Positions 4,948 through 32,227 of a stretch of DNA of 64,000 nt are shown here, one piece after another. Position 1 is the stretch's first letter. Each line of letters opens with the position of its first letter. Made by a program: the position numbers and the translations under genes. Source of the DNA: a virus. The stretch is from the IMG/VR virus record IMGVR_UViG_3300045918_000131, positions 30,249 through 94,248 of that record; one strand, 5' to 3'. A model generated the notes under the pieces. It saw only the letters and a list, made by a program, of their open reading frames with translations, searched no databases and had not been told where the DNA came from.

Positions 4948-4948
4948 T

Positions 4949-5107
4949 ATGAATATCATAGGACGTATATTATTTGTATTGCTTACTTGGCCTGCAGTAG
5001 CGTTTATTGATGTTCCAAATATAGGATGGAGCCTATTTCTAATAGAGATGTTAGATTTCGTTAGATATGGCGACAAAGAGCTTCCGGAAGAATTTCTGGA
5101 TAAATAA
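4949..5107 (+). CDS. Small membrane protein
   Basis: 52 residues starting at ATG 4949, one base after the previous stop. Hydrophobic residues 3-32 form one or two membrane helices, then an acidic tail (DKELPEEFLDK). No family recognised. Confidence 0.55.
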   Translation: MNIIGRILFVLLTWPAVAFIDVPNIGWSLFLIEMLDFVRYGDKELPEEFLDK

Positions 5108-5129
5108 CTATATTAAATGGGTTAAAATT

Positions 5130-5516: not shown

Positions 5517-5519
5517 ATA
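5512..5519 (+). promoter_or_regulatory. Late-promoter-like octamer CATAAATA
   Basis: Matches the T4 late consensus at 7 of 8 bases. It ends only four bases before the ATG at 5524, so a transcript starting from it would have almost no leader. Confidence 0.4.
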
Positions 5520-5523
5520 CTCG

Positions 5524-12661: not shown

Positions 12662-13789
12662 TTACAGTGAGCAAGCGCCGCTTGAACAGCCTCGGTCATC
12701 TGAGTTATTGTTCTCTATTAGTCCATTTTGACTAATAGTTGCATCTTCGTCTGCTGATAAGTCTACTCCATTACTAGTAAGACTATTTACATAATACCTC
12801 GATTTCATTCCATATTTAACCATTGTTAAATAATCTTGTATCATGTCTGTACTAGATACTTTTTGATCTCCTTGTATCTTTACAAATAAGTCAGCACTAA
12901 TTGCTTGATCGCACCATTTCTGAAAAATAGAATATACTTTAATCATATCATTAGTGCTAATATCCCATGCTAATTGATACTTATTTTTTAACTTAGTACC
13001 GTCCGGCGCGGACCAATGGTTTACTCCGGTATCATTGGTTTTCATTAAATTAAATTCTCTAATAGGATAGGACCCATTGGTAGTTCCGCTTGAAATGGTC
13101 GATGACTCCCCCGGAGCATTTGCCACTATCACTGAATTACGTATGCCGCCATTGGCAATTATCTCTTTACGTAACATATCCCAATCACGCTTACATTCGA
13201 CTGTAACTAATTCATCTACACGTTGTTCATAAGTATCCAATGGTAACCATCCTTCAGGCCATCTAGTTTTATGCATCCAGGGCGCATTGCCAAGTTCTTT
13301 ACCTAAGCGAAGACTTGCATTTAATACATGCCAGTAATGCGTTTCTGCTAATTCGTGTATAAAATTTCGTCCTTCAATAGTATTATATTTTTTATCTTTC
13401 TTTGCCATTAAATGTGCTAAACCTAATATACCAACACCAGCACTTAATCTTGACTTTGCTGTATGCTCTAAGTTAGGAAACACATAATCAGACTTATGTA
13501 TACATTTATCTATCATTTTTAATGCATAATATGCTACTTCTGCATATTGCTCATCTGACTCAATATTACCTACAACTATTCCCGCAAGACTACATAACCC
13601 GATTTCGCCGTCTCCTTCTTCATAATATTGTTTATATAATTCGGCAACGCTAGAATACCCTTTGGAAATTAGGGCTATCTCCTGACAGTTATGCACTAAT
13701 ACATCATTAGCGAAAAACGATTCTGTTTCTGGCACAGTAATATCATATACTGGCGTTGGATCTACTTTAATCTTTCTAATCTTAATCAT
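12662..13789 (-). CDS. nrdA: NrdA C-terminal part preceded by a C-terminal split-intein fragment
   Basis: 375 residues with its own RBS (CCAGGAAG before ATG 13789). Residues 1-34 are a C-intein ending 'FFANDVLVHN', with the terminal Asn needed for splicing. Residue 35, Cys, is both the +1 extein nucleophile and the catalytic thiyl Cys of class I reductase (E. coli C439, 'SNLCLEI'; here C-Q-E-I). The remaining 341 residues complete the barrel ('NAPGESSTISSGTTNGSYP') and end with redox cysteines 'CSSGACSL'. Must join with the 13894-15492 product to be active. Confidence 0.93.
   Translation of the reverse strand: MIKIRKIKVDPTPVYDITVPETESFFANDVLVHNCQEIALISKGYSSVAELYKQYYEEGDGEIGLCSLAGIVVGNIESDEQYAEVAYYALKMIDKCIHKSDYVFPNLEHTAKSRLSAGVGILGLAHLMAKKDKKYNTIEGRNFIHELAETHYWHVLNASLRLGKELGNAPWMHKTRWPEGWLPLDTYEQRVDELVTVECKRDWDMLRKEIIANGGIRNSVIVANAPGESSTISSGTTNGSYPIREFNLMKTNDTGVNHWSAPDGTKLKNKYQLAWDISTNDMIKVYSIFQKWCDQAISADLFVKIQGDQKVSSTDMIQDYLTMVKYGMKSRYYVNSLTSNGVDLSADEDATISQNGLIENNNSDDRGCSSGACSL
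13688..13789 (-). other. C-terminal split-intein segment (34 codons)
   Basis: Starts with its own ATG and ends V-H-N just before Cys. It contains the F and G splicing blocks ('VYDITVPETESFFANDVLVHN' region). No endonuclease domain. Confidence 0.9.
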
Positions 13790-13893
13790 ATGGTTCTTCC
13801 TGGGTAATACCCGTCTGGTGATTGTTGTGATGCTTTAACTTTAATATTTTTTCGTTTGTAAACCATTTATGTGAGTAGCGCAATTTCTTTACA

Positions 13894-15492
13894 TTAAGTT
13901 TCGAGTAATTCGTCACGTTCGGTTAAATCTTTTGCGGGTACAAATCCTCGATTTTTAGTATAAATCATATGGTCGGCGGTGCATCTTATTATCTTACCGT
14001 TAGGACTTTCAATCTCATATAAATCTGTCGAAACCCCTGTTTGCGCTGCGGCTGATACTTTACTCCATACTACCTCTTCGCCGTTAAATGATTTAACATA
14101 AACTTCCGTATAATATCCTAACTCATACTTGGCAATAAAGTCGTCTAATCTGACTATTTCGGCAAAATTTCCGGCGTTGTTAGACGCAATTTCAATGTTA
14201 GTATTGCCAGTCAAACAGAGATTCGACGAATAAATCTTTTCTTTAAAAGGAGTATGTTTATTCATCGTATCAAACTGATGTAAGTAATGTACTCCGGTTT
14301 CGTAACTTTGTGTTAATGCACCTAATAATAATTCACGAGCATTAACTTTAACCTTTACTTTATCTGAATTTGCGTAAAGTGTATATAATTCTTCAAATTT
14401 ATTAGGGTCTTTATTATATTGTGCTTCGTATAACTCCGGCACATCCCCGTACGAAAATAAGTAAATATCTTCATTCTTAGCTACTTTACGTGCAAAAAAT
14501 TTATTACTACCAAAACTATAATGACATCCTCCTATTTTTTTATTAAGCGGAGTCATCGGGTGTCTCAATTTTTGTATCACTTCGACTTCGGGGTCAAATG
14601 CAGTGTAATGTACTGTGCTCGCGCCCCCACGCCCATTTTGTAAATTAGCTTGTATTGCACCTACCATTGCTCTATAGTATGGCAACTTACCTTGATGTTG
14701 AATAATTCCGTTACGAATCGAGTCACCTAGAGATCTAGTCTTAATATGAGTTCCTATACCAGCACTCATACATGTCATCATATATGCAATATGATCTCCG
14801 GCCGCCAAACTGGCAGCTGAATCCTGTGTAGTATAAACACAACATGAAGCATAACCGTTTAACTGTGTACCTAAATTAACAAAATTTGGTGTTGGACAGT
14901 TAATCCTATTGAAACTAAAATGATCATACCATGCTTTTACATGTACTAAACGTTCTGCTGATGGCTCATCTTCTGCTAACGCCATAGCCATACGCATGTA
15001 TACAAATTGAGGAGATTCATACTCTTTACCTGTTACTTTGTTGCGTAATGCATACTTATAACGAATTTGATTTAATTGATAATGAGGATATTTTAAATCT
15101 CGTTTGTGGTCTATAATTTTTTCTATTGCTGTATATTCGTCAGTTGAATAATGCATGTCTACCATTAAACCAGCAGTCTGTAATTCTTCATGTAAACTTT
15201 GTACTGATGGTCTACCATATGGATAAATTACACGTTCAAGTAAGTAAGTATATAACCTACCTGCCATTCTATTATACTCCCAGGTTTTTCTACTTAAACA
15301 AGTACTAATTAAGGTCTCTTGTAATTGTTGACTAGTACAAGTTTCAGGACATTGTACTACTGCATCTATTACTATGATAGACCAATCTACCTGTGATCCT
15401 AATGTTTTTGCAGCCCATGTTCCCCAACCATTTACTTTTGATGGAGAAAAATCTTCAACTCTCCCGTCGCGTTTTACGATCTTTTTTATCAT
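13894..15492 (-). CDS. nrdA: NrdA N-terminal part followed by an N-terminal split-intein fragment
   Basis: 532 residues, RBS AGAAGG. 1-425 are the class Ia large subunit: ATP-cone at the N-terminus ('IKKIVKRDGRVEDFSPSK'), the redox Cys in 'GYASCCVYTT', and a stop of the extein at 'YSSNL'. From residue 426, 'CLTGNTNIEI' opens a Hint N-domain with the block-B motif 'CTADHMIYT' near 505, ending at RDELLET and a stop codon. With the C-part the mature protein would be 766 residues (E. coli 761), all core blocks present. Confidence 0.93.
   Translation of the reverse strand: MIKKIVKRDGRVEDFSPSKVNGWGTWAAKTLGSQVDWSIIVIDAVVQCPETCTSQQLQETLISTCLSRKTWEYNRMAGRLYTYLLERVIYPYGRPSVQSLHEELQTAGLMVDMHYSTDEYTAIEKIIDHKRDLKYPHYQLNQIRYKYALRNKVTGKEYESPQFVYMRMAMALAEDEPSAERLVHVKAWYDHFSFNRINCPTPNFVNLGTQLNGYASCCVYTTQDSAASLAAGDHIAYMMTCMSAGIGTHIKTRSLGDSIRNGIIQHQGKLPYYRAMVGAIQANLQNGRGGASTVHYTAFDPEVEVIQKLRHPMTPLNKKIGGCHYSFGSNKFFARKVAKNEDIYLFSYGDVPELYEAQYNKDPNKFEELYTLYANSDKVKVKVNARELLLGALTQSYETGVHYLHQFDTMNKHTPFKEKIYSSNLCLTGNTNIEIASNNAGNFAEIVRLDDFIAKYELGYYTEVYVKSFNGEEVVWSKVSAAAQTGVSTDLYEIESPNGKIIRCTADHMIYTKNRGFVPAKDLTERDELLET
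13897..14217 (-). other. N-terminal split-intein segment (107 codons)
   Basis: Begins at Cys (TGT, 14217-14215) right after Ser-Ser-Asn-Leu. Hint blocks A (CLTGNTNI) and B (TADH) are visible. Separated by 104 bases from the gene carrying the C-intein; that spacer has stops in the reading frame and no endonuclease gene. Confidence 0.9.
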
Positions 15493-20483: not shown

Positions 20484-20915
20484 CTAAATTCTTATAGATT
20501 CAAAGTATGTATTTGTATCTGGGCCTGATACACAAAATGCATGAGTAGGTATAATTACAGACTCGTCTAATCCTAATATTACAGGAACGTTAGTAAAATC
20601 CTCTTCCAATGCTCCAAATAAGCTATTTGAATTAGAATATACCGCAGCTTGTTCAACCCCAAATTTAAAAGTCCATACAGCTTGACTACCTGTAAAATTA
20701 CTGCCAAATCTAGAGTTAGTAATATTTAATTGTAACACTTCAGGTACACTCATTGTTAATAACTGTGTTCGTAATCCTAAACATTGTAATACTGCTTCAA
20801 AATTTCGTTGTTGATTACGCTGTTTTGAATTGCCAGCTACTACATTTGTTTGTGTGATATCTACTAAAGTCCATCCTACAGCTAAGTGCAATAAAATACT
20901 ATCGTCATTATTCAT
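20484..20915 (-). CDS. Probable virion protein
   Basis: 143 residues, beta-rich; contains 'SNSLFGALEEDFTNVPVILG'. Preceded by a late octamer at 20938-20945 and placed between the terminator and head-related genes. Likely a structural protein; no family recognised. Confidence 0.6.
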   Translation of the reverse strand: MNNDDSILLHLAVGWTLVDITQTNVVAGNSKQRNQQRNFEAVLQCLGLRTQLLTMSVPEVLQLNITNSRFGSNFTGSQAVWTFKFGVEQAAVYSNSNSLFGALEEDFTNVPVILGLDESVIIPTHAFCVSGPDTNTYFESIRI

Positions 20916-20937
20916 ATTATGAAAATCCTATTAATAG

Positions 20938-20945
20938 TATTTATT
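20938..20945 (-). promoter_or_regulatory. Late promoter octamer AATAAATA
   Basis: Minus strand, 22 bases before the 20915 start. Confidence 0.55.
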
Positions 20946-20966
20946 GTCAAAAATTTTAGTCAAAAT

Positions 20967-20994
20967 AAAACCCTAATTTTTCAACTAGGGTTTT
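20967..20994 (-). terminator. Rho-independent terminator
   Basis: Inverted repeat AAAACCCTA / TAGGGTTTT with a 10-base loop, followed on the minus strand by ATTTT. Ends the 21020-21358 transcript. Confidence 0.85.
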
Positions 20995-21019
20995 ATAGAT
21001 CTTCTACGTTATGGTGATA

Positions 21020-21358
21020 TTAAGCAAACATCATTCCGCCAGTACTTGTTACTACAGCACCAGTTAAACCAGCAGCAACTACGGCAGCAGTAGCAGCAGC
21101 ATCACTTGCAAAACCATGTGATTCCATCAATACGCTTAATTGATCAGCATCTGCTTGATAAGCAATAACTGTACCACCAATGCATAATGCACGGATTGCT
21201 GTTTCTACTTGACCGTCAACACCTGTGCCAGCACCAATGCCAGTTAATACTACTTTGAAAGCTGTTGGGTGCTTTCCAATACCAGTAGATACAATCTTGC
21301 CTGAATCTACGTTTACTACACCCCTTGAATCGCCATGAACGCGTGATAAAATAGCCAT
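21020..21358 (-). CDS. Abundant Ala/Gly-rich structural protein (putative)
   Basis: 112 residues. Small residues dominate (Ala, Gly, Val, Thr); 'SRVHGDSRGVVNVDSGK' opens, and the tail is 'VVTSTGGMMFA'. It has the only perfect TATAAATA late octamer found ahead of a gene, a strong RBS (TAGGAGA) and a dedicated terminator, the layout of a highly expressed late structural gene. Could be a head-decoration or tail-associated protein; no family is recognised. Confidence 0.65.
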   Translation of the reverse strand: MAILSRVHGDSRGVVNVDSGKIVSTGIGKHPTAFKVVLTGIGAGTGVDGQVETAIRALCIGGTVIAYQADADQLSVLMESHGFASDAAATAAVVAAGLTGAVVTSTGGMMFA

Positions 21359-21400
21359 TTTTTTCTCCTAATTAAATTGTAGTTAAAAACTACATACACT

Positions 21401-21408
21401 TATTTATA
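21401..21408 (-). promoter_or_regulatory. Late promoter, perfect TATAAATA
   Basis: Exact match to the T4 late consensus on the minus strand, 43 bases ahead of the gene ending at 21358. Confidence 0.8.
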
Positions 21409-21454
21409 CCGATTGGCATTTAATTAAGTACTATGTTAATTATTACCAAAATTA

Positions 21455-22129
21455 TTAGCCAATAACCCAAGGGTCAACGATAACGGGAGTATTATTTCTT
21501 AGCATGTAATTACCTTGATGTAAGTCAAAATTCCAACCGTAATCGTATCCTATTCTGTCTATATCAAACACTGTTTGAACTAGTAACTCTAAATGTTTTC
21601 CTGCTATCTTTTTGAGTTGTTTGTAGTATATTACATTATCAAAAGAACTATCAAACATATATTCGTAATAACCTTCATGGATGTTCGATCTAGAGTAGTA
21701 TGCACTATTCTCCGTAATATATTCTGACAGTGATAATAAGGCTTCGCCATACTGTCCGGCTTCTGTTAAACGTTCCATACGTATCTGTAGGTACATACGT
21801 TCGTCAAATATAAACTTCTCAAAACCATCAAACCTTGGCAAAAAAGGATTGTTACTATTTTTACAGTAGTTAGCCCAAAATACAAACATCTCTTGATCGC
21901 TGCTTAATTGTGAACTACTTTCACCAAACGTGTTGGTTTCTTTTGTTCCAAATATTTTAAGTACCTTACCTGTTCCAGGCTCTAAAAAAGCTGTTTGATC
22001 GGCTCCAGCAAAACCAAGTTGTTTATATCCTTTTTGACGTAGTACTTTGTATATATCAGAATGTGTGGAAGACTATTCTTCTAGATTTTCTTCCTCAATT
22101 ATTGATACCTTTAGATCTTGTATTCTCAT
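21455..22129 (-). pseudogene. Aminoglycoside-phosphotransferase-like kinase broken by an in-frame TAG
   Basis: The frame opens at ATG 22129 with a CTS-like leader (MRIQDLKVSIIEEENLEE), hits TAG at 22073-22075, then continues in the same frame to 21455. The continuation resembles the intact gene at 28945: 'GTGKVLKIFGTK', 'SSDQEMFVFWANYC', 'LQIRMERLTEAGQYGEALL', and the catalytic loop 'FDLHQGNYMLRNNTPVIVDPW' (HxD replaced by D-L-H-x-x-N). Either a recent pseudogene or a read-through product. An internal ATG at 21889 could give only the C-lobe. Confidence 0.7.
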
Positions 22130-24339
22130 TTAACTACTCCTTTTGCAACAAACATTGTAAAATCTTCTATAGATAACGGTTTACTAAAAAGATATCCTTG
22201 ATAATACTTACAACCGTAATCAAACAATGTTTGTCTTTGTTCTTCGGTCTCGACACCTTCGGCAATAACTTCTAACCCCAAGCCCTGTGCCATTGCTATA
22301 ATAGTTTTAACTATAGCTTTATCGTTGTTACTGAATTGTAAATCTCTAACAAAAGATTTATCTATTTTGAGCTGATTTAATGGTAATATTTTTAAATATT
22401 GTAAGGAAGAAAATCCGGTTCCAAAGTCATCTAATGAAAAGTGTATACCTAGTTTCCTTAATTGATTAATGACAGATATTGATGTATCTACATTTTCTAA
22501 TAATATACTCTCTGTAGGTTCTAATTTAAGCAATGTTGTGTCGAATTGATATTTATGTATTAATTTATGTACATTAGATACAAAATTAGGATCTAAGAAT
22601 TGTTTTGCACTTACGTTAACAGATATAGTTAATTTTTGCGTAGTAACGTCATCTTTCCATAGCGTTAGTTGCTTACAGGCAGCTTCTAATACCCAATATC
22701 CTATGGGAATAATTAACCCTGTATCTTCTGCTACGGGAATAAAAACTATCGGAGATATTTCTAATTCTTGTTTATTAGAATTCCATCTAAGTAATGCTTC
22801 TGCACCAATTATATTATAATTTTCGTCGACTTGCGCCTGGTAGTGTAATGTAAACTCATTATTGTCAATAGCTGTTCTAAGTTTACTTTCTATATAAACC
22901 CTAGATGTAATATATGCTTGCATTTTTGGATCAAAAAATCGAATTGTGTTTTTACCTGCCTTTTTAGCTTGGTACATGGCAATATCTGCCTGTCTTAATA
23001 TATCATCTACTTCACTAGTTTCTTGATTAAACAATGTGGCACCTATACTTGCAGTTATATTATAACTGCAATTTGGTAATATAATTTCGTCAATTAAAGA
23101 CGTTAAAATTTTATTACTATATAGTTCTACTTGTGCGGCTGCTACTTGTAAGTTAACATCTAAATCGTGTAACATAACTACAAACTCGTCGCCGCCAAAA
23201 CGGGCGACAGTATGTCCTACACGTAAACATTTCTCAATACGCCATGCTACTTGTTGTAACATAGTGTCCCCAATAACATATCCAAGCGACTCGTTCAAAT
23301 ATTTAAAGTTATCTAAATCTATGAATAATACTGCTCCGTACTTATTATTTAACGACGTGTTAGATAAGGCTACCTGTAATCTATCTAATAACAATCTTTT
23401 ATTAGGTAAACGTGTAAGCGTATCATAAAAGGCTAATAATTGTATTTCATCAGCAGCATCTTTATTGATTTTAATATCGGTTACTGTAGCGATGTAATTA
23501 GTTATAGTACCAAAAGAATTTTTAACAGCGGAAATATGTAAATGTTCTGGATATAACTCTCCGTTCTTACGTTTATTCCATATTTCCCCGCTCCAAAATC
23601 CTAGTTTATTAATTTCTGCCCATAGTCTAGTGTAAAATTCTTTCGTGTGTCTACCAGAACTAAAGATTCTAGGGTTCTTACCTAATAGCTCGTGTTCTGA
23701 AAATCCTGTGATATTACAAAAAGATTGATTTACACGTAATATATTAGCTTGAGCATCTGTTACTATCATACCAACTTGCGAATTAAAAATCACAGCGGAT
23801 ATCTTCTCTTCTAAGAATCTTTTATTACGATCCGTAATATCATCTAACATCATGCATAAAGTTGTACCATTTAACGTAGTCTTTAAACGACAGTTAACTT
23901 TACCATGCCTGATTGATTCGTTTAAAATAAAGTCTATATCAATTGAATGTTTTTGTGTATTATTTTTATCTATCATTATACTATCAAAGAAGTGTATCCA
24001 TAGATCTTTATCTGCTATATGTTGTTTAAAACAACACCCAATGGCTGTATTCTTAGTAATTCCCAAAAGTTCGCACCCTGCATTATTGATATCTTGAATT
24101 TCACCACTGATCGACAATGAAAGGTAAGCTATAGGAGCAGTTTCAAACATAGTAACATAATCATCATGCGATTGAATTAATTTTACATGAGATAGCTTTA
24201 ATTCTTCTAGTTGATTTTTTAACTCAAATTGACATTTTTCGCTTTCACGTAAAAGACGCTTGTAATTAACGGTTACTGGGTTAGTATCGTTATCTAAGGG
24301 GTCACATTTGTTTGTATTTGTGTTGTGGATTTTATTCAT
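22126..24339 (-). CDS. PAS-PAS-GGDEF-EAL protein: c-di-GMP synthase/phosphodiesterase
   Basis: 737 residues, no membrane segment. PAS near 60-150 and 170-280 ('FCNITGFSEHELLGKNPRIF'). GGDEF domain 290-460: 'YDTLTRLPNKRLLLDRL', active-site 'ARFGGDEFVVML' intact, but the inhibitory RxxD site is R-V-G-H. EAL domain 475-730: 'GAEALLRW', 'LEPTES', 'SLDDFGTGFSSL', 'LKIDKSFV', 'EGVET', 'QGYLFSKP', all catalytic positions present. It could make or destroy c-di-GMP in the host; which activity dominates cannot be read from sequence. Late octamer upstream. Confidence 0.93.
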   Translation of the reverse strand: MNKIHNTNTNKCDPLDNDTNPVTVNYKRLLRESEKCQFELKNQLEELKLSHVKLIQSHDDYVTMFETAPIAYLSLSISGEIQDINNAGCELLGITKNTAIGCCFKQHIADKDLWIHFFDSIMIDKNNTQKHSIDIDFILNESIRHGKVNCRLKTTLNGTTLCMMLDDITDRNKRFLEEKISAVIFNSQVGMIVTDAQANILRVNQSFCNITGFSEHELLGKNPRIFSSGRHTKEFYTRLWAEINKLGFWSGEIWNKRKNGELYPEHLHISAVKNSFGTITNYIATVTDIKINKDAADEIQLLAFYDTLTRLPNKRLLLDRLQVALSNTSLNNKYGAVLFIDLDNFKYLNESLGYVIGDTMLQQVAWRIEKCLRVGHTVARFGGDEFVVMLHDLDVNLQVAAAQVELYSNKILTSLIDEIILPNCSYNITASIGATLFNQETSEVDDILRQADIAMYQAKKAGKNTIRFFDPKMQAYITSRVYIESKLRTAIDNNEFTLHYQAQVDENYNIIGAEALLRWNSNKQELEISPIVFIPVAEDTGLIIPIGYWVLEAACKQLTLWKDDVTTQKLTISVNVSAKQFLDPNFVSNVHKLIHKYQFDTTLLKLEPTESILLENVDTSISVINQLRKLGIHFSLDDFGTGFSSLQYLKILPLNQLKIDKSFVRDLQFSNNDKAIVKTIIAMAQGLGLEVIAEGVETEEQRQTLFDYGCKYYQGYLFSKPLSIEDFTMFVAKGVVK

Positions 24340-24365
24340 TCTATCTAATCACTCAATATATTAGT

Positions 24366-24373
24366 TATTTATC
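24366..24373 (-). promoter_or_regulatory. Late promoter octamer GATAAATA
   Basis: Minus strand, 26 bases before the GGDEF-EAL start; implies expression late in infection. Confidence 0.6.
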
Positions 24374-24410
24374 CATTGCGATCAGGATAAGATTACTATA
24401 TTTGTTAATA

Positions 24411-25277
24411 TTAATAGTTTGTGGACACAGAATCAAGTGTTTTGAGTTTAATGACATCATCGCCGTCGGTTGTGTCTGATGTCATCAGGTTCAACGTATT
24501 ACGTTTGGAATTCTCAGCTAAGTATTCTAATTCAGGTACACGAGTATGAGTATTATGCGATCCCAATACTACAACGACACGCTTACCAACAGACGTTATT
24601 AGCATTGAAGCAATACAACCACCAGAAGCTCGGATATAACCCGTTTTACTTACAATGAATTTACCAGTACCTACATTGTGATTAGTGTTATTAAATACTA
24701 ACGTTCTAGCATGTATTGACGTCCGATGTCTATGTTTAACATAAATTGCTCTACTAATAGTAATAGAAAAAGAAGAAGTAATAGCAGCTTGTTGAACTTC
24801 TGGATAACTCTGAGCAGCTATTATCGCTAATACTAAGTCGTTAGCTGTTGATACATTCATTATACTCAATCCTGAAGGTTCAACCAATCTAGAATGTATC
24901 ATACCTAAATTCTGTACTTTTGTATTTAACGCCCTAATACATGCTTGTCTACCTCCAGGATAATAATTACATAACATATCAGCTGCTGGATTATTTGAGC
25001 TAACTAACGCCATTTGTATTAATTGACGTCTAGTATAATTTTTAGATACTTTATCGTCTAGATCCTGTTTAGCATCTAATACAATCATAACTGTAATTAA
25101 TTTGCTAATACTTGCTATTGAACGAACTTGATCTGAATTTTCTGATTGAATAACTTTTCCAGAATCATCTGTTACTACCCAGGATTTGGCAGTAATAGGT
25201 ATAGCATAAGCTTGAGCTACTATTGACGACGACAACAACAATAATATAGCACTTGCGGTAAGAATTCTAAACATCAC
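24411..25277 (-). CDS. D-alanyl-D-alanine endopeptidase/carboxypeptidase, S11 family
   Basis: 288 residues. Cleavable signal peptide at 1-24 (ILLLLSSSIVAQAYA). Penicillin-binding motifs in order: SxxK in 'IASISKLITVM' near 57, SxN in 'ALVSSNNPAADML' near 95, and KTG in 'VSKTGYIRASGG' near 205. Resembles PBP7/PbpG, which trims peptidoglycan crosslinks in the periplasm. Its domain is complete. Could loosen the wall for release or alter the wall of the infected cell; unusual in phages. Confidence 0.9.
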   Translation of the reverse strand: MMFRILTASAILLLLSSSIVAQAYAIPITAKSWVVTDDSGKVIQSENSDQVRSIASISKLITVMIVLDAKQDLDDKVSKNYTRRQLIQMALVSSNNPAADMLCNYYPGGRQACIRALNTKVQNLGMIHSRLVEPSGLSIMNVSTANDLVLAIIAAQSYPEVQQAAITSSFSITISRAIYVKHRHRTSIHARTLVFNNTNHNVGTGKFIVSKTGYIRASGGCIASMLITSVGKRVVVVLGSHNTHTRVPELEYLAENSKRNTLNLMTSDTTDGDDVIKLKTLDSVSTNY

Positions 25278-25470
25278 GTTACTTTCTATTTGGGTTATAC
25301 CATAAACCTGTATATGGCATTATTAAACTATTTTCTGGAATCATTGATGAGTATCTATCATTTTTCCAATATCCACATATACCGTGTTCTAAATGTGTCA
25401 TCTTCTGTTGGGAACTCTGGATACACAGTTATATCAGATGACATTGGATTAATTACACGCTCTGTCTCGG

Positions 25471-26409
25471 TTACTGTTCTTCTTTCAATGGAGACCACAA
25501 CATAGATTTACTACCTTTTTTGATAGCATTGAACCCGTTCTTCCGGTAGAATCTGGTCAACGCCGCCTGGCTCACTCTACCTTTATCCCAAGGAAATAAG
25601 GTTAACACAATACTATCATTATGTGCTAATTGCTTTAATATAGTTAATGCTTTTTCACCAACCCCTTGTCTTTGCGGATCAGCCATAATCCATTTAATCT
25701 CAACTGCATCTTTCTTCGTCATACTTGGCTCTAATTCAAATACTGCAAACTGCGATGCTTGTTTTTCATCTTCTGGCCTGATATATTTACCAGTTTCATC
25801 CCATGCCATTACACGTTGGTTATCAGCATATGGCCATTCTTGAAACTGTGCATAGATCTTTTTAATCCACTCTTTAGCTTTATTATTGCCACCAATTTTA
25901 ATACGTATTGGCTCATCAGGTGTATTATCTACATATGGTTCATATTCTTCATCTAATTCCTCATAATCATATTCGCCATTAATTAAATATCCCTTACCAC
26001 CACAACGAAGACATGTTTCTTCATACTCTATGCCAGATCCATAACACATCGGGCATTGTTCTTCATCGGCATCTTCGTCTAATTTGTGACAATATCCCGC
26101 ACCATCTTCATCTAACTCTGTATATTCATCTCGGGCACGGCTTACGTCATTCATCTTACGCATTAACGCTAACCCAAGTTCCTCACTTCCATTTGTGTAT
26201 TCCATAACTGCTTTTGATAAGCGTCTAAACGACATAGTAGCTCTACGTTTTAATTCACCAGTTGTTGGGCATTGACCATTAGCATCCATTGGGGAATTTC
26301 TGGGACGTAGTGCATCGTTTGCAGCACGTTCTTTTTCGTGTAATACCCAGATGTATTCAGGCACAAAACTTGGTGCTATTGTTTCGTTTATTATTTCAGA
26401 TATCTTCAT
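25471..26409 (-). CDS. CTS-leader protein: DnaJ-type zinc finger plus GNAT acetyltransferase
   Basis: 312 residues starting MKISEIINET (ATG 26409). Helical region to about 110; a DnaJ-like zinc finger near 118-140 with two CxxCxGxG motifs (CPMCYGSG, CLRCGGKG); then a GNAT fold near 215-310: 'VEIKWIMADPQRQGVGEKAL' (acetyl-CoA pyrophosphate loop Q-x-x-G-V-G) and 'ALTRFYRKNGFNAI'. Likely packaged in the head and cleaved after I-N-E; would acetylate a host target. The target is unknown. Overlaps the next gene by a few bases. Confidence 0.75.
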   Translation of the reverse strand: MKISEIINETIAPSFVPEYIWVLHEKERAANDALRPRNSPMDANGQCPTTGELKRRATMSFRRLSKAVMEYTNGSEELGLALMRKMNDVSRARDEYTELDEDGAGYCHKLDEDADEEQCPMCYGSGIEYEETCLRCGGKGYLINGEYDYEELDEEYEPYVDNTPDEPIRIKIGGNNKAKEWIKKIYAQFQEWPYADNQRVMAWDETGKYIRPEDEKQASQFAVFELEPSMTKKDAVEIKWIMADPQRQGVGEKALTILKQLAHNDSIVLTLFPWDKGRVSQAALTRFYRKNGFNAIKKGSKSMLWSPLKEEQ

Positions 26410-26411
26410 TC

Positions 26412-27017
26412 TCAATACCCTTCTTTCTTAGCTATTTCTTTCCACTTAGTGGTTAAAGCGGCGGCAATATCTACTGGCATTGCCCATCCATTACGTCTCA
26501 TTATACTTATTAGTTTAACTGCTTGCTCTCTATCACTACTACCTGGCTTACGTGCATTCGCAAAGTCGTTCTTTAAATCATAATCATTGACATTATCGTC
26601 CCATGCACTTACCATGTTTCTACGCAGTCTATCTGCACGGTCTGTTGAATTAGTTTTACTACTCTTATATACTAATTCTAACCATGGTTCAAGGTAACTA
26701 CGTCCAGAGTATGTTTTACCTGTACGTTCTATTCCAGATAAGGTTTCTCTTGGACCTGTAATTGGTACTACTTTGCGGGTATCTTGTAATTGCCAAGCTT
26801 TCTTATCTTCATAAAAGTATGTTTTAATACCATGTGTTTTAGCTACTATTAATAGTTTTCTAACTGCTGCAGGTATTCCTTCACCCCAATTTTTACGTTC
26901 TTTTGCTGTCTCCATAGGCGTAGCATATACATGAATTGCAGTAATACCATTACCTACTGGCATTGATGGTTTTTTACTGAAGATTCTATCCTCAAATATA
27001 AACTCATTTTCTCTCAT
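26412..27017 (-). CDS. CTS-leader protein of unknown function
   Basis: 201 residues starting MRENEFIFED. Its leader shares the bases CTATCCTCAAATAT with the genes at 36828 and 38296. After the leader come 'ITAIHVYATPMETAKERKNW' and a basic helical C-terminal half ending KWKEIAKKEGY. Soluble. No recognised domain. Confidence 0.65.
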   Translation of the reverse strand: MRENEFIFEDRIFSKKPSMPVGNGITAIHVYATPMETAKERKNWGEGIPAAVRKLLIVAKTHGIKTYFYEDKKAWQLQDTRKVVPITGPRETLSGIERTGKTYSGRSYLEPWLELVYKSSKTNSTDRADRLRRNMVSAWDDNVNDYDLKNDFANARKPGSSDREQAVKLISIMRRNGWAMPVDIAAALTTKWKEIAKKEGY

Positions 27018-27529
27018 TAATTTGTCCTAGTAACTATAGATCCATCTGTTTGGATAATTTGAAATTCAATACTCCAATCCTGTTTTGATAACTTTAGCAA
27101 TATTAACGCTAATGCAGCTTGTGATCCTTCTATACTGTCGTAAAATAAAGTGTCACCGAAAGAAAATCCAACATTTAAGTTATTTGGAAATCCTGTCTTC
27201 TTTCCAGTGATAGTAGATAAAGAATAATCATCATCGGAGTTAATGGGTAGATCTTCTAGTTTTAACAATATATCGCTAGTTGTAATTACTACTAGTTTAG
27301 CTGCATTAACAAATACTAAACCTATTGGGGAATAAAATCTTCCAAGGCTTGGTACTACAGTATTATTTTTCTGTAATACAACAAAGTCTTTAGCATTGTT
27401 GGCATATTCTTTGTCGTTCTCAAATAAACACGATAATTGAACCTGTGCTAAAGTTAATACCCCACGACGGATTAAATCTTCATGAATTAGATCTATATGC
27501 CTAATAGTAACAAATTCATGTGCTCTCAT
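27017..27529 (-). CDS. CTS-leader protein, 150-170 residue family
   Basis: 170 residues starting MRAHEFVTIR. The body is a single alpha/beta domain with a closing helix ('ALALILLKLSKQDWSIEFQ'). It resembles the proteins at 31360-31821 and 38949-39446, which end with the same L-L-x-L-x-x-S-x-W pattern. The leader lacks the exact I-x-E cleavage residues, so processing is doubtful. Function unknown. Confidence 0.65.
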   Translation of the reverse strand: MRAHEFVTIRHIDLIHEDLIRRGVLTLAQVQLSCLFENDKEYANNAKDFVVLQKNNTVVPSLGRFYSPIGLVFVNAAKLVVITTSDILLKLEDLPINSDDDYSLSTITGKKTGFPNNLNVGFSFGDTLFYDSIEGSQAALALILLKLSKQDWSIEFQIIQTDGSIVTRTN

Positions 27530-27532
27530 ACC

Positions 27533-28375
27533 TTAATCCCAATCACTTTCGAACGGACTTACGCCGTTTTGATTAATTTTAACTTTTCCTACTAAGGTAA
27601 GGACGGCTGGATTAAAAAACGCAGAACTTTCGACATCCCACCCATAAGTGAATTCATTACCGCGTCCATAATCATAATGATGCACACAGTCGAAATGCAT
27701 TGCTACTTGGTCCCATGGAAAATCTGAAGTCATAGACCTATACGATTCTTCTCGATCATAAAATTTAGTTGCGCCTCTGCCTAACCTATTAAATATGTCG
27801 TAAATTTCTTCTGCGTGCTGATCATTGTCCATTTCTAATACAGTTACATTATGTGATACTTTATATAAGTACCCGGTTTCATTCATCCACGATGATTGAT
27901 TTTGTGATACCCATCTGACCCAGTCTGATGTATAAGTGCCGTTGTCTAAACGTTTTGCTGTACTGGTCCATAATGCAGCATTATACGGTTTATTATTTCC
28001 TGGGGGTACATTATTTCGTGCGGCAATAACTGGCGAACCTTCGGATATATCTTTCTCTAACCCATTAGTTAGATCGTGATCTGGCGATTTATCAGCCCAA
28101 TCTTGATACGATTGCGCAATTTCGTGGTTATATTCGTCGCCGTCTTTTTCGTAACGGTACCGGCTACTAATATTATCTAAATGTTTATCATATCTAGATT
28201 TTGCACCAGGATGTGGTCTAGGCATGAACAACTGATAAGAATTGGCTGGCATTTTACCGTGCCCGTGTTCTTTCCAAAATTGTAATTCTTCATACGCCAA
28301 ATCAACATCCGTCTTAACTATGGCTTGTTCTTTCTTCTTTCTAGAATATTCTGTTATAAATTCGTATGCTCTCAT
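27533..28375 (-). CDS. CTS-leader protein, possibly ADP-ribosyltransferase-like
   Basis: 280 residues from MRAYEFITEY (ATG 28375; an earlier Met lies 5 codons upstream). 'AALWTSTAKRLDN', then 'WVRWVSQNQSSWMNETGYLY' and 'VTVLEMDNDQHAEEIY' recall the small toxin-like folds of phage ARTs, but the three-motif core is not clear. The C-terminal third is aromatic-rich. Late, capsid-targeted role inferred from the leader. Confidence 0.6.
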   Translation of the reverse strand: MRAYEFITEYSRKKKEQAIVKTDVDLAYEELQFWKEHGHGKMPANSYQLFMPRPHPGAKSRYDKHLDNISSRYRYEKDGDEYNHEIAQSYQDWADKSPDHDLTNGLEKDISEGSPVIAARNNVPPGNNKPYNAALWTSTAKRLDNGTYTSDWVRWVSQNQSSWMNETGYLYKVSHNVTVLEMDNDQHAEEIYDIFNRLGRGATKFYDREESYRSMTSDFPWDQVAMHFDCVHHYDYGRGNEFTYGWDVESSAFFNPAVLTLVGKVKINQNGVSPFESDWD

Positions 28376-28379
28376 ATAA

Positions 28380-28943
28380 TTATTCCTCAAATACTAATAT
28401 ATATTTATGTACGTTGTTATCTAAAAAATCAGGATTACTGCTACTTATTGCAAATAACTTTTGATTCTCTAGACTAGTTATAGGACCTTTAGTATGAACA
28501 ACGTTACCGTTACCGTCTTCGATATGACATTTAGAGTAAACCGAAGCTAAACGCATTAACATTTTATGTGCTCCATCTTTAGTATTTGTATTGTCGGATT
28601 CTAGAGATTTTCCGGATTTAAGTAACAGCAATAATACATCGGTCATTTGGAAACTTGCGCCGGGCAATTTTCGTATAATTGATAATGCTAACCTAGAATG
28701 TTGCGTTGGCATTTTATGCTCTATATGCCCGACGGTTTCTTTTGTATTTAGATCAGTTATAAACGTATACCCTGTGATATATGTATACTTACTTAGATAC
28801 AATACAACTCTGTAACTACCTATATTACCTAATTCTTTAGGCTTCATAAAGTCATCGTGGTCAATATCGCTTTCGGTCATTCTTGCAAGAATGACGTTAT
28901 TGTTTGACATCTCATACTCGTTAATGAACTCATGCGCTCTCAT
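28380..28943 (-). CDS. CTS-leader protein of unknown function
   Basis: 187 residues starting MRAHEFINEY, a textbook leader for this set, with a possible cleavage after I-N-E. The body is alpha/beta with 'SYRVVLYLSKYTYITGYTF' followed by a helical segment. It ends 4-5 bases before the next leader-bearing gene. No family recognised. Confidence 0.65.
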   Translation of the reverse strand: MRAHEFINEYEMSNNNVILARMTESDIDHDDFMKPKELGNIGSYRVVLYLSKYTYITGYTFITDLNTKETVGHIEHKMPTQHSRLALSIIRKLPGASFQMTDVLLLLLKSGKSLESDNTNTKDGAHKMLMRLASVYSKCHIEDGNGNVVHTKGPITSLENQKLFAISSSNPDFLDNNVHKYILVFEE

Positions 28944-28944
28944 A

Positions 28945-29595
28945 TTATTTTCCTGAATGCCTAGGTACTACCCAAGGATCTAATATTACAGGAACATTAC
29001 CTCTCATCATAAAATTTTTCTCATGTAAATCAAGATGCCATTTCATCTTTGTTGAAATTTTTAATAATGAATTGATAGTTGTAGCTAATTTTAATAATCT
29101 ATCATTTCCTAATGCTTCGTGTAGTGTGTTATAATCCTTGGGGTATCGTACATTAAAATAATGAACAATTTTAGGAACATCAAACCCCATCGGTTGTCCT
29201 TCTTTAAATTCATCTGCTAATGTCCATGCCGCCCATCCTAATTTGGTTGCTTGTGTTAACCGTTCCATTCTAATTTGTAAATAAGTACTTTGATCAAATA
29301 CAAAACGTTCATATCCAGAGAACTTAGGTAAAAATTCATTGTCTACGTTTTTCATACAGAATTTGGCCCATATTATGAACATTTGTTGATCTCTACTTAA
29401 TTGTTTACCTTCAGAACCCTTTGTATATGATTTAGTACCAAATATCTTTAACACGTCTTTTGAATTAGGCTCAGAATATGCACTTGCGTCAACACCTTTG
29501 CCTATTCCCTTATATCCTTGTTTTGTTAGTTCAACATCGATACTTGGATTAAAATCGCTCCATTCGTCTAAATTAAACATTTCGTTTAATAACAT
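28945..29595 (-). CDS. Aminoglycoside-phosphotransferase-like kinase
   Basis: 216 residues. Leader MLLNEMFNLDE is divergent from the CTS form. Kinase features: Lys in 'DVLKIFGTKSY' (beta3-like), 'SRDQQMFIIWAKFC', 'YLQIRMERLTQATKLGWAAW', and the catalytic loop 'HLDLHEKNFMMRGNVPVILDPW' with H-x-D-L-H-x-x-N and D-P-W. Likely phosphorylates a small molecule or protein. Intact relative of the broken genes at 21455 and 40962. Confidence 0.75.
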   Translation of the reverse strand: MLLNEMFNLDEWSDFNPSIDVELTKQGYKGIGKGVDASAYSEPNSKDVLKIFGTKSYTKGSEGKQLSRDQQMFIIWAKFCMKNVDNEFLPKFSGYERFVFDQSTYLQIRMERLTQATKLGWAAWTLADEFKEGQPMGFDVPKIVHYFNVRYPKDYNTLHEALGNDRLLKLATTINSLLKISTKMKWHLDLHEKNFMMRGNVPVILDPWVVPRHSGK

Positions 29596-29608
29596 AATAA
29601 CTCACTTT

Positions 29609-30016
29609 TTAATATTTACTAATTTCGCCAGCAAATGCCATACACGATATCAACATTATGAATGCAAATATTATCAATAATATATATTTACTTTCTGATA
29701 CATCTAATACTTCTTCAACATTAATATCTACTTGTATATTGCGTTGAATTGCATTACTAATGAATGGTGGTTCTGATATCAAATGAGTATATTCTGAATA
29801 TAATAAGTCATGTTGTTCGATTAAATCTAAAATTATTTTAGCATGTGCTAATGGAAATCCTTGTCTATCTAAACGATTATTAAATCTAGATTCGCTGTTC
29901 TGTAATATACCTAACATGTACTTTCTACAATCAGAAGACCCCCAAGTCTGATGGATAGTAGCTGAAACATGTGGGTAACGTTTATCAAACTCTACAGGTA
30001 TTATTATATTGACCAT
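29609..30016 (-). CDS. Tail-anchored membrane protein, paralogue 1
   Basis: 135 residues. A soluble N-domain with 'RYPHVSATIHQTWGSSDCR' and 'RQGFPLAHAKIILDLIEQHD', then one membrane helix at the C-terminus ('ILLIIFAFIMLISCMAF'). Shares the Y-P-H, W-G-S, G-F-P and Q-H-D landmarks with 31840-32226. Its function is unknown; the anchor suggests insertion into the host inner membrane. Confidence 0.65.
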   Translation of the reverse strand: MVNIIIPVEFDKRYPHVSATIHQTWGSSDCRKYMLGILQNSESRFNNRLDRQGFPLAHAKIILDLIEQHDLLYSEYTHLISEPPFISNAIQRNIQVDINVEEVLDVSESKYILLIIFAFIMLISCMAFAGEISKY

Positions 30017-31363
30017 TTATTTCTTAGGATGTAACTGTTTATATTCTAACGTCGTTAGTACAGACCCGTCTTTATTAATGATTATCTCTTCGCTTACCCA
30101 TCTTGCTAGCCTTTTAATTATGCTATCTTCTCTTCTAGCTTCTTGAGCTACAACGTAAGATATTACTTTATTAATATTACGTATAGTTGGTGTTTCTTCT
30201 TGATCGCTAGCATAGTCAGAACACATGCTCTTTAGATATCTTGCTTTAATATCAACGGCGCTAATTAGATCTTTGTACATAACTTCGGCATCTGTGTTAT
30301 ATGTGAAGTACGACTTACCGTCTTCAGCATAACGTTCCCAATCTGTATCTCCATTTGCACTTATATAACCTTCTGAACGTACCCATTCAGAATAACTGTC
30401 GTCGTATGATTCCCATTCAATAACAATGTCATTGATGTAAAAGTCTAGTGCTTTTTCTGCTACTTTATCTAATATTGATTGTAAAAACTCATCATCTGCA
30501 AAAGCTATATAATCTTTAATAGCTGGTTCTCTTTCTGCGAACCAAGGTACTAAGTTACCGAATCTAGTTGATAATAAAGTAACTTCGTTCACTGGGTCGT
30601 CTCGTTCGTCCATAAATTGTCCAGATTCAAAGTGTAGTTGATACTTTTCTTCGTCGTCGTTGGGTTGTTTGGGAATTAAAATATACATTAATCCTTCTCT
30701 GTTATAATGATCAAACATGTTATTACCACTCATTGTGGCTGTACACCAATCAGGAGCACGTTCTTTTGACCTAACTAATTTACTACCATCCCACACTAAG
30801 CGAGCCGCAGTTCTACTTCCTGCAGTATCTTCTGGTACTACAATGACTACTTCTGTGGTTCTTAGAACCACAGAAAATTTACCAGGATCAGCTAATGCAT
30901 CTATTTCTATTAGTGCATCGACATAATTACTATCTGTTGCTATATTTCCAAGTTGACCCATATTAAATCTATTAATGTCTCGATCCGAAACCGGTAATAT
31001 ATTCTTCATCTTCATATTATGGAAAGTAGTTAACCATTCTTTACCACGTGTGGTAATATCTTCAAATTTGACTTGTATGTTGTCTAGAGGAGTTGTATAT
31101 ACTTTAACTAACCATTGAACATATTGTTTATTTTTTGTAGGGTCTACATTCTCTAATGACATTAGAACATCAGCAATTATTCGTTGTTTAGTACCATCTG
31201 TAATTGGCACTGCGTTAGAATTAACCAATTCCCCACGTGCGGTACCTAACCCGGCAGGTAAGAATCTAGATTTATCAAAACGTAACGAGTTCAACAATTT
31301 TTCGCCAAAATTATGTGCTGTTTTAGTCTGGTTATATTCTAATATAAATTCTTTAGCTCTCAT
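30017..31363 (-). CDS. Large CTS-leader protein of unknown function
   Basis: 448 residues starting MRAKEFILEY. Contains 'APDWCTATMSGNNMFDHYNR', 'GLMYILIPK' and 'YQLHFESGQFMDERDDPV', a block I associate with a phage protein family that lacks an assigned function. The C-terminal third is helical and charged. Good leader with I-L-E. A candidate internal head protein. A near-perfect inverted repeat lies within it at 30851-30875. Confidence 0.7.
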   Translation of the reverse strand: MRAKEFILEYNQTKTAHNFGEKLLNSLRFDKSRFLPAGLGTARGELVNSNAVPITDGTKQRIIADVLMSLENVDPTKNKQYVQWLVKVYTTPLDNIQVKFEDITTRGKEWLTTFHNMKMKNILPVSDRDINRFNMGQLGNIATDSNYVDALIEIDALADPGKFSVVLRTTEVVIVVPEDTAGSRTAARLVWDGSKLVRSKERAPDWCTATMSGNNMFDHYNREGLMYILIPKQPNDDEEKYQLHFESGQFMDERDDPVNEVTLLSTRFGNLVPWFAEREPAIKDYIAFADDEFLQSILDKVAEKALDFYINDIVIEWESYDDSYSEWVRSEGYISANGDTDWERYAEDGKSYFTYNTDAEVMYKDLISAVDIKARYLKSMCSDYASDQEETPTIRNINKVISYVVAQEARREDSIIKRLARWVSEEIIINKDGSVLTTLEYKQLHPKK

Positions 31364-31821
31364 TTAACTTCCTTCATAAGTCTCCAATCAGAGAATCTTA
31401 AATTAAGTAATACTAAGAAATTATTCTTTTCCTGTTCAGTATTAAATAATATAGTTCGCTGAGTATTGTCGGTTACTGGTCCTACTAATTCTGGAAATCT
31501 CCGCAACTGACCAGACACTGTATTTTTAACTATTATTTGTCCATTGGAGTCAACCGATATAAGAATATGATCATCTTTAATGTCTGCTATTGATAAAAAC
31601 TTATGTCCTGTGATTCCGGACCACCCTAAAGTAACATAGAAATATGCATTGCTGATAATAGGATCAAGTTGATAATTAACAATAAAAGTCTGAATTTCAT
31701 CACCTTCAACTGTACTTTCAATTATGAGACTGTTTTCTAATAGATATTGATTAAAACCTCGGTTAAATATTAAATTAAATTCGTTAGTAAAGTCTTCGAT
31801 GATAAATTCGTTAGCTCTCAT
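31360..31821 (-). CDS. CTS-leader protein, 150-170 residue family
   Basis: 153 residues starting MRANEFIIED. Second member of the family with 27017 and 38949 (ends 'NNFLVLLNLRFSDWRLMKEV'). Nineteen bases of its leader coding sequence recur inside the 32228-35863 gene. A late octamer lies 23 bases upstream. Confidence 0.7.
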   Translation of the reverse strand: MRANEFIIEDFTNEFNLIFNRGFNQYLLENSLIIESTVEGDEIQTFIVNYQLDPIISNAYFYVTLGWSGITGHKFLSIADIKDDHILISVDSNGQIIVKNTVSGQLRRFPELVGPVTDNTQRTILFNTEQEKNNFLVLLNLRFSDWRLMKEVK

Positions 31822-31839
31822 GCTTAAATCCTAATAATA

Positions 31840-32226
31840 TTAACTATTTATCCAGTGTAAGCTAATTACTTTAACAATTACTATGGATATAAGTACGGTT
31901 ATAATAGCTGCAATCCAAAATAGTAAATTGTCGTGTTGAACTATTGTACGTTTTGGTCTAATACTTAAAAAATAAGGTTCTTCTGGAAGTATACATGTAG
32001 GGAATAAATCGTCGTGTTGATCTATGAGTTGCATGATGAATTTAGCATCCTTCATCGGAAATCCGCTTCTTGCATTTCTAAAGTCAACATCTCTACCTTT
32101 ATCTTGTAACAAGTCTAATAGGTATTGTCTTCCTTCTATTGAACCCCATAATAATTGAAGTTTTGTACCTATGTGTGGGTATTTTTCAAAAAACTCAGTT
32201 TCTTCTAATGTTGTAATATTATACAT
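31840..32226 (-). CDS. Tail-anchored membrane protein, paralogue 2
   Basis: 128 residues. 'KYPHIGTKLQLLWGSIEGR', 'SGFPMKDAKFIMQLIDQHD' match paralogue 1. C-terminal helix 'LLFWIAAIITVLISIVIVKV' anchors it in a membrane. It sits between two CTS-leader genes but has no leader itself. Confidence 0.65.
   Translation of the reverse strand: MYNITTLEETEFFEKYPHIGTKLQLLWGSIEGRQYLLDLLQDKGRDVDFRNARSGFPMKDAKFIMQLIDQHDDLFPTCILPEEPYFLSIRPKRTIVQHDNLLFWIAAIITVLISIVIVKVISLHWINS
31845..31852 (-). promoter_or_regulatory. Late promoter octamer GATAAATA
   Basis: Minus strand, just inside the end of the 31840-32226 gene and 23 bases ahead of the ATG at 31821. Confidence 0.55.
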
Positions 32227-32227
32227 G

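Follow-up and report, generated by a model that had tools for sequence, protein, structure and literature searches.

A PAS-PAS-GGDEF-EAL gene behind a late-promoter-like octamer in a probable jumbo-phage contig

A 64,000-nucleotide stretch of viral DNA, i.e., positions 30,249 to 94,248 of the IMG/VR virus contig IMGVR_UViG_3300045918_000131 (94,248 bases; in the following the stretch is called the window and the contig the record), encodes a PAS-PAS-GGDEF-EAL protein of the cyclic di-guanosine monophosphate (c-di-GMP) enzymes. The gene is a phage gene, it is accessory, it lies behind an octamer that is enriched upstream of the genes of the record, and genes of this kind recur in other large phages. 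The reading that we tentatively favour, which may well be right but falls a little short of being probable, is that of a late, accessory, soluble and possibly flavin-PAS-gated enzyme acting as net c-di-GMP phosphodiesterase, with a GGDEF domain that is regulatory or a weak, conditional cyclase. c-di-GMP governs whether bacteria swim, stick or make matrix, and phage receptors can be under its control. The enzyme type as such is ordinary for bacteria; its residence and its wiring are what is unusual. The gene, its octamer and its domains are located in the window as follows:

22126-24339, minus strand: PAS-PAS-GGDEF-EAL gene, 737 amino acids, ATG to TGA without internal stop
24366-24373, minus strand: late-promoter-like octamer GATAAATA, its first base 34 nucleotides before the ATG of the enzyme gene
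24139-24279, minus strand: N-terminal helix, residues 21-67, a helix in the AlphaFold model
23830-24159, minus strand: PAS 1, about residues 61-170, with PAS-like order of strands and helices in the model
23473-23802, minus strand: PAS 2, residues 180-289, NifL/MmoS-like, with W240 and N255 (Pfam PAS_9, PF13426, residues 189-289, E=1.2e-20)
22948-23433, minus strand: GGDEF domain, residues 303-464 (PF00990, E=1.6e-39)
22177-22884, minus strand: EAL domain, residues 486-721 (PF00563, E=1.4e-69; 234.5 bits versus a curated cut-off of 31.3)

A preliminary description of the window had proposed a phage-encoded PAS-PAS-GGDEF-EAL protein with complete catalytic motifs, and this is borne out by Pfam, by the AlphaFold model and by the residue alignment. 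The Pfam PAS model finds two stretches in the protein, and the AlphaFold model, calculated from 70 sequences (the enzyme and relatives from the fetched loci), shows an N-terminal helix, two PAS folds, GGDEF and EAL with a mean predicted local distance difference test (pLDDT) score of 92.0, only residues 1-22 being below 50. The strands of PAS 1 comprise residues 71-75, 80-84, 133-142, 146-157 and 160-167. The predicted template modelling score is 0.68 and the relative placement of the domains is therefore less sure. The helix of residues 21-67 is likely a coiled coil, as judged from the model, and no membrane segment was seen on inspection of the sequence. Furthermore, the protein matches PHROG 11823 (4e-156), a family that may stem from mislabelled records, and an exact-peptide scan returned no close relative.

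Relatives of solved structure are MorA, PA0575, PA0861 and DosP by sequence, and DosP followed by PA0861, MorA and PA0575 by fold; all four act mainly as phosphodiesterases. E. coli DosP (PdeO) is the best full-length fold match (9cmf, E 4.6e-57) and has the same PAS-PAS-GGDEF-EAL order, which is supported for the phage enzyme by Pfam, model and fold match. However, it is only 23% identical, it is not phage-borne and its sensing PAS domain binds haem, whereas PAS 2 of the phage enzyme resembles sensors that bind flavin adenine dinucleotide (FAD). P. aeruginosa MorA and PA0575 share 40-41% identity over GGDEF-EAL, and PA0861 shares 28-29% over PAS-GGDEF-EAL; the domain arrangement is common to these proteins and the phage enzyme, but the three are cellular proteins, mostly with membrane parts.

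To judge the catalytic state, 80 bacterial homologues taken from a single genome scan were aligned to the protein together with homologues from phages; the scan used motif patterns (at least 599 stretches), and both the reference set and the identity of the nearest relative are conditional on it. At the positions that we take to be catalytic, the EAL domain has all ten residues checked (E514, N575, E607, E610, D637, D638, K658, E694, E697 and Q714), and the GGDEF domain has its motif intact at residues 382-386 together with the metal and substrate residues D341, D343, N349, D358 and K459. The phage enzyme keeps 56 of the 59 columns that are at least 95% conserved across the bacterial homologues. 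The three changed columns, R314K, D350E and H354Y, are all found in GGDEF (3/27) and none in EAL (0/32); three or more changes in conserved GGDEF columns occur in only two of the 80 homologues, and the position of H354Y is a histidine in 77 of them. This pattern, although it consists of three substitutions only, speaks for constraint on a phosphodiesterase rather than on a cyclase, as all losses are in GGDEF and none in EAL; the closest solved relatives, which act mainly as phosphodiesterases, point the same way. The RxxD inhibitory site, which is common in GGDEF cyclases but does not define them, is absent: the sequence reads R373-V-G-H376, and the last position is an aspartate in 72 of the 80 homologues. 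The altered site had been pointed out in the preliminary description and stands; the weight given there to a loss of product inhibition is less well founded, since it presumes a net cyclase and conservation points rather to a phosphodiesterase. The lost I-site matters mainly if cyclase activity dominates.

The statement that a late-promoter octamer precedes the gene also held, the octamer being correctly oriented, 34 nucleotides upstream and enriched. In the 148 upstream stretches of 60 nucleotides in the record, NATAAATA is found 21 times versus a mean of 6.2 in 300 dinucleotide shuffles (standard deviation 2.3, maximum 13) and once on the opposite strand of the same stretches. GGATAAATA was counted eight times in these stretches and ten times in the whole record. 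In the window the exact T4 form TATAAATA is rarer than expected (5 versus 18), and GATAAATA alone is at chance there (9 versus 8.9). Thus the signal resides in position and strand, not in the count over the whole window. Octamers of this type, which we take to be late promoters by analogy to T4, also precede tail-fibre, baseplate and tape-measure genes of the record (the last a weak match), and the record encodes a clamp loader. As the enzyme gene has an ATAAATA-type octamer closely upstream like a T4-type late gene, it would be expressed late in infection. A promoter scan for sigma-70-like sites gave no excess (21 found versus 21.5 in shuffles).

PAS 2 may provide the sensory input. Its best solved relatives are MmoS (3ewk) and NifL (2gj3, 9qq6), which are FAD redox sensors. 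In the accessible text on the PAS domains of the NifL/MmoS/Aer group, a tryptophan in helix F is described as main determinant of FAD binding and an asparagine and a histidine as secondary ones, at least two of the three being conserved in each cluster of the FAD-PAS group (PMC10468136). PAS 2 has the tryptophan (W240) and the asparagine (N255), with P223 at the position of the histidine, so that by its residues it falls into this group; a flavin redox input is plausible. The contacts of MmoS used for comparison are those given in the parts available of PMC9668731.

That the gene is a phage gene is evident from its surroundings. The record encodes ribonucleotide reductase, exonuclease, a UvsW-type helicase, primase, a DnaB-type helicase and the clamp loader as well as endolysins and tail-fibre and baseplate-type proteins. 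Among the best named relatives of the helicase (20 of 3,025 records listed) are the phages Phosso (469 kb), PA5oct and 121Q, and the record is therefore probably a jumbo-phage fragment. The GC content at third codon positions (GC3) of the enzyme gene is 22.6%, compared to 24.5% (standard deviation 3.2) over 64 genes of the record and to 30-65% in six of the closest bacterial homologues. Its overall GC content, 31.6%, is lower than that of most genes of the record (mean 35.1, standard deviation 2.7; 5/64 genes lower). Phage genes lie on both sides, and the nearest bacterial copy among the matches listed is about 55% identical. The possibility of a host fragment placed here by an assembly error, raised in the preliminary description, was rejected together with host contamination by composition, neighbours, octamer and divergence.

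The origin of the gene was approached by a tree of 109 GGDEF-EAL cores, i.e., the enzyme, eight proteins of other jumbo phages, 21 other IMG/VR loci and 79 of the 80 bacterial homologues (one was too short), calculated by a quick method that left 53 of 106 inner branches open. The enzyme falls in a clade of seven rows (SH-aLRT 96) with Methylotenera, Methylophilaceae, Gallionella, an uncultured gammaproteobacterium and Vibrio salinus, which suggests a beta- or gammaproteobacterium as probable donor and perhaps also as host. PAS-GGDEF-EAL proteins of Methylotenera and Gallionella (L210, L211, L215, L217) share this clade and are the closest bacterial matches listed (52-55% identity); they differ from the phage gene by longer frames (806-1163 amino acids) and higher GC content.

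Moreover, comparison with the most syntenic relative, G006 (a 155 kb fragment, helicase 67% identical, syntenic over much of the record), shows that the gene is accessory. In G006 the homologues of 20484-20915 and of part (263/1211 residues) of 32228-35863 are 1.1 kb apart, whereas in the window the two genes are separated by no less than 11.3 kb. Another relative, G005 (57 kb), carries an EAL-only protein with a hydrophobic, membrane-helix-like N-terminus and ECL replacing EAL; where it overlaps with G006, the two match the window with almost equal percentages, and G005 may represent the opposite end of largely the same phage. Of 40 helicase-related records searched (from 80 loci kept; many are short fragments) one contained EAL and none GGDEF, the record itself being the sole GGDEF match of the 41. 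The island and the neighbours of the enzyme gene are:

20916-32227, minus strand: accessory island with the enzyme gene, from synteny with G006
24411-25277, minus strand: upstream neighbour, S11 D-Ala-D-Ala carboxypeptidase-like (PF00768, 1.4e-31), signal-peptide-like N-terminus
21455-22129, minus strand: downstream kinase-like frame, its ATG overlapping the stop of the enzyme gene (ATGA, 22126-22129)

The SxxK, SxN and KTG motifs by which we recognise the S11 peptidase are apparently complete. The overlap of stop and start suggests that enzyme and kinase-like frame may be co-translated. The kinase-like frame contains an in-frame TAG after 18 codons, TAG being an ordinary stop in the record (14 of 114 open reading frames (ORFs)), and its C-terminal part is 36% identical to an intact paralogue at 28945-29595 (minus strand), which weakly matches the T7-type protein kinase family. 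In another phage (L153, see below) the enzyme gene is followed at 2.1 kb by a kinase-like gene of only weak similarity. A two-gene system of enzyme and kinase-like frame is therefore no more than a lead.

Genes encoding GGDEF-EAL proteins are found in eight other large phages. One IMG/VR motif scan based on EAL motifs was done, of which the best 80 of 187 confirmed relatives were kept; ORF lists were examined for 13 of the 80 loci and eight were counted as jumbo phages. Nine of the 80 loci are on contigs of at least 89 kb and represent these eight phages, since L097, which shows the same ORF numbers as L095, apparently comes from the same phage. Loci L088, L089, L094, L101 and L144 resemble host sequence or the edges of prophages and were not counted. 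The eight phages are:

L095 (G045), 184 kb: PAS-PAS-GGDEF-EAL gene near a split RNA-ligase-like gene and a dihydrofolate reductase-like gene
L117, 90 kb: several PAS domains, amid tail-type genes
L134, 170 kb: GGDEF-EAL gene followed by an HD-GYP-type gene
L146 (G075), 543 kb: GGDEF-EAL gene
L150, 115 kb: GGDEF-EAL gene, its frame starting at the contig edge
L153 (G080), 250 kb: GGDEF-EAL gene followed by an HDOD gene
L159, 137 kb: GGDEF-EAL gene near an nrdA-like gene
L164 (G088), 224 kb: GGDEF-EAL gene with weak dCache match

Those of their neighbouring genes that had no family search were recognised by eye, and the phage status of the contigs rests on IMG/VR, on these neighbours and, in some, on helicase and terminase family matches: phrog_16 is strong in G045, G088 and G083 and very weak in G075 (2.1e-5), phrog_2 is matched by G075, G083 and weakly by G045, and neither was found in G070, G080, G066 and G077. 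In L150 a kinase gene followed by a second gene (3400-6639), presumably PrkA-like and YeaH-like, respectively, is close to the GGDEF-EAL gene. In the tree the eight phage proteins require five changes, at least three of which are forced by the starred branches, and the enzyme of the window lies elsewhere; long branches (L164, L159, L153) leave the exact numbers unsure. A single origin thus appears unlikely, and several independent captures are suggested.

The octamer NATAAATA is found within 70 nucleotides upstream of six of nine phage c-di-GMP genes, i.e., that of the window and those of L095, L117, L134, L153 and L164, and it is absent from this interval in L146, L159 and L087; L150 was excluded as its frame starts at the contig edge. 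From per-record backgrounds this gives P ~9e-4 in a post hoc test, in which the backgrounds of five records rest on 13-17 ORFs including the gene itself and a floor of 0.01 was used for L159. The octamers of L153 (-13) and L117 (-64) are oddly spaced, and four of the nine genes have theirs at -29 to -34. L095 is AT-rich, and shuffles of its upstream stretch alone give the octamer at a frequency of 0.295. Among 12 phage records searched, HD-GYP was found in one and a PilZ effector in none; any target would therefore be host effectors. It is conceivable, and we regard it as somewhat less likely than the reading favoured for the single enzyme, that jumbo phages having T4-type late-promoter motifs repeatedly and independently captured c-di-GMP enzymes and placed them under late promoters, which would represent a convergent late reset of c-di-GMP; with several c-di-GMP genes in some of the phages (a hybrid and either GGDEF without EAL or HD-GYP) yet no PilZ receptor found, host effectors would be steered.

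The preliminary description had called such proteins rare in phages. For catalogued phages this holds, as 136 INPHARED records matched the query but none covered 80% of it in one place; it does not hold for uncultivated jumbo phages, given the eight contigs. Eight of the INPHARED records were opened (H1, H3, H6, H110, H22, H31, H51, H10), and the remaining ones were judged from 60 'best' and 60 'spread' rows, 66 of the 136 being named 'Bacteriophage'. H1, H3 and H6 were rejected as isolated phages, being bacterial contigs with the gene beside metF/rsmE/maeB, ilvIHC and fis/acrE-type genes. Several of the strongest GGDEF-EAL 'phage' matches thus come from bacterial contigs (CAKLQH02/CAKLQF02 and AGRM01/AFYI01; three opened), a trap for surveys of phage gene content. 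H31 and H10 are scaffolds of faecal origin, neither verified nor annotated, and matches to the enzyme also occur in many other unverified faecal 'Bacteriophage sp.' entries. Among the 50 matches listed from a viral structure library no GGDEF-EAL hybrid was evident; they include GGDEF proteins of phage G, phage SP-15, phage CN1 and uncultured phages.

Genes for c-di-GMP enzymes are not new to phages. The isolated jumbo phage G of Bacillus encodes gp350 (H110), annotated as GGDEF diguanylate cyclase; unlike the enzyme of the window it has 254 amino acids and GGDEF only, without EAL or PAS match. The cyanophage AS-1 entry DQ115821 (H22, L300; 1,670 bases) contains an unannotated, cut GGDEF-EAL frame (3-1076) encoding the end of GGDEF and the whole EAL domain, but it is too short to be placed in a genome, be it phage or host DNA; if it does come from that phage, a GGDEF-EAL case had already been catalogued earlier. 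Citrobacter phage Chris1 (H51) encodes an EAL protein in a complete phage genome; however, this has a CSS-motif and EAL, no GGDEF despite its annotation, and is located beside an integrase. AS-1 and Chris1 leave our estimates unchanged. Viral GGDEF-EAL hybrids may already have been reported through mucR of Sargassum viruses, which we take to be a GGDEF-EAL type gene. An effect on biofilm was proposed for mucR, present in two viruses, and yhjH of Sargassum viruses (PMC11295528) and for a c-di-GMP turnover gene of a Mu-like virus from the Cariaco Basin (PMC7785012); the accessible parts of both papers describe neither a late promoter nor a jumbo phage nor a PAS-PAS-GGDEF-EAL protein. Among the matches listed, in a literature coverage that holds few subscription papers, no account of jumbo-phage GGDEF-EAL proteins or of their late promoters was found. 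New are the eight other large IMG/VR phages with GGDEF-EAL, some of which add GGDEF-only or HD-GYP genes, and the EAL-only protein of the near relative G005.

As a possible sequence of events, a jumbo phage having a late-promoter motif of the T4 type, its host probably being a beta- or gammaproteobacterium, would have captured a bacterial PAS-PAS-GGDEF-EAL gene and kept it as accessory late gene. In the soluble, cytoplasmic enzyme PAS 2, possibly binding flavin, would gate a net EAL phosphodiesterase, and the GGDEF domain, having three unusual changes and no I-site, would serve as GTP-binding regulatory domain or as weak conditional cyclase. Late in infection the enzyme would lower the c-di-GMP of the host and thereby turn off matrix, adhesins and those surface glycans that depend on c-di-GMP, which might help the progeny to escape, to disperse and to avoid re-adsorbing. 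An action on biofilm or motility, as suggested in the preliminary description, is plausible. Phage N4 is a precedent for a c-di-GMP-dependent phage receptor in the available text of PMC8669472. If giant phages commonly seize this switch late, biofilm state, dispersal and the exclusion of superinfection would all be tied to viral infection, ready test cases would be provided by one short octamer, one enzyme and one measurable product, and GGDEF-EAL genes on viral contigs could not all be dismissed as host contamination.

Several observations weigh against this reading. The activity of the enzyme and its direction are predicted from the sequence, and the intact GGDEF motif, metal and most substrate residues make a net cyclase possible. 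The other phages were found by a scan based on EAL motifs, so that their intact EAL sites are partly ascertainment, and by inspection G080 has two, G088 three and G075 one GGDEF gene without EAL and with intact motifs; these phages are therefore not uniformly carriers of phosphodiesterases. Neither EAL nor GGDEF was found in the 155-kb fragment G006, and the enzyme gene is thus dispensable. As regards the flavin, W240 is present in only 46 and N255 in only 38 of the 80 bacterial homologues, and the MmoS histidine and arginine positions are proline and valine in PAS 2. Finally, in the L095 record the octamer is weakly enriched (40 ORFs versus 26 in shuffles and 22 on the opposite strand).

Two alternatives are unlikely but deserve weight, and to a similar degree. 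In the first the enzyme is a net diguanylate cyclase that lost its I-site, escapes product inhibition and raises c-di-GMP late, so that cells stay sessile and matrix-bound and the progeny meet clustered hosts. The intact GGDEF site, the histidine replacing the I-site aspartate and the GGDEF-only genes of jumbo phages speak for it; however, EAL is intact and strictly conserved, GGDEF has the unusual changes including H354Y, and c-di-GMP bound at an I-site matters little if EAL removes it. In the second the enzyme is switchable, a PAS ligand or redox state deciding between synthesis and hydrolysis and tuning host c-di-GMP to the energy state. This would fit the two complete catalytic domains, the two PAS domains retained in a high-confidence model and the similarity of PAS 2 to FAD redox sensors, but not the GGDEF-specific changes, and the ligand is conjectured from sequence similarity. 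Much less likely is a counter-defence function, in which EAL degrades c-di-GMP or a related cyclic dinucleotide signal of a host abortive-infection system. Counter-nucleotide phosphodiesterases including HD-GYP are predicted across jumbo phages in the parts available of PMC7824862, and the L134 phage pairs GGDEF-EAL with an HD-GYP-type gene; yet such an antagonist is expected early, which does not fit an octamer of late type, it would have no need of GGDEF and PAS, and the massive own use of c-di-GMP by the presumed hosts (23-58 enzyme matches per genome in four genomes) makes it a poor alarm signal. A recently acquired passenger or assembly artefact without phage function, to which the absence from G006, the variable island and the in-frame stop of the next gene might point, is largely refuted and hardly credible in view of the conserved columns (56 of 59 retained although identity to the bacterial copies found does not exceed about 55%), the phage base composition, the own octamer, the overlap with the next phage gene and the recurrent captures in other large phages.

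Apart from the enzyme, GC content climbs from about 0.36 to 0.45 across 60000-64000 of the window, with no ORF above 125 amino acids beyond 60.1 kb. The ribonucleotide reductase large subunit gene (12662-15492, minus strand) is split into two ORFs, the first ending with an intein-splicing match and the second starting intein-C-like, an arrangement that resembles a split intein joined by trans-splicing; in L095 the RNA-ligase-like gene is seemingly split in a similar way (3116-3934, 4093-4800). Elsewhere in the record, outside the window, locus L002 (7830-9752) encodes a protein of 640 amino acids that starts with MSKIIGIDLGTVNSCVAVME after its first ATG and belongs to PHROG 22485, a family of unknown function; by its signature we take it to be a DnaK/Hsp70-like chaperone.

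Twelve of the 114 ORFs of the record (window 18065-42936, minus strand) share an N-terminus of the type M-[RK]-x-x-E-F/I-I-x-E (e.g., MRANEFIIE, MRAYEFITE and MKIKDIISE), compared to 0.04 in shuffled N-termini and 0/402 in ORFs of cellular loci, the pattern having been written post hoc. It presumably resembles the capsid-targeting propeptides of T4, and by this analogy the cluster suggests packaged and injected proteins. The role of such propeptides is treated in the accessible text of PMC9026906. The enzyme starts with MNKIHNTNTN, which is no such T4 internal protein-type, targeting-like sequence, and its packaging into the capsid was rejected. The N-terminus was not found in L134, L146, L150, L159 and L164; it is present in 8 of 281 ORFs of G006/G005, in 3 of 212 of G045, in 1 of 14 of L117 and in 6 of 300 of G080, four of the latter being near the GGDEF-EAL gene.

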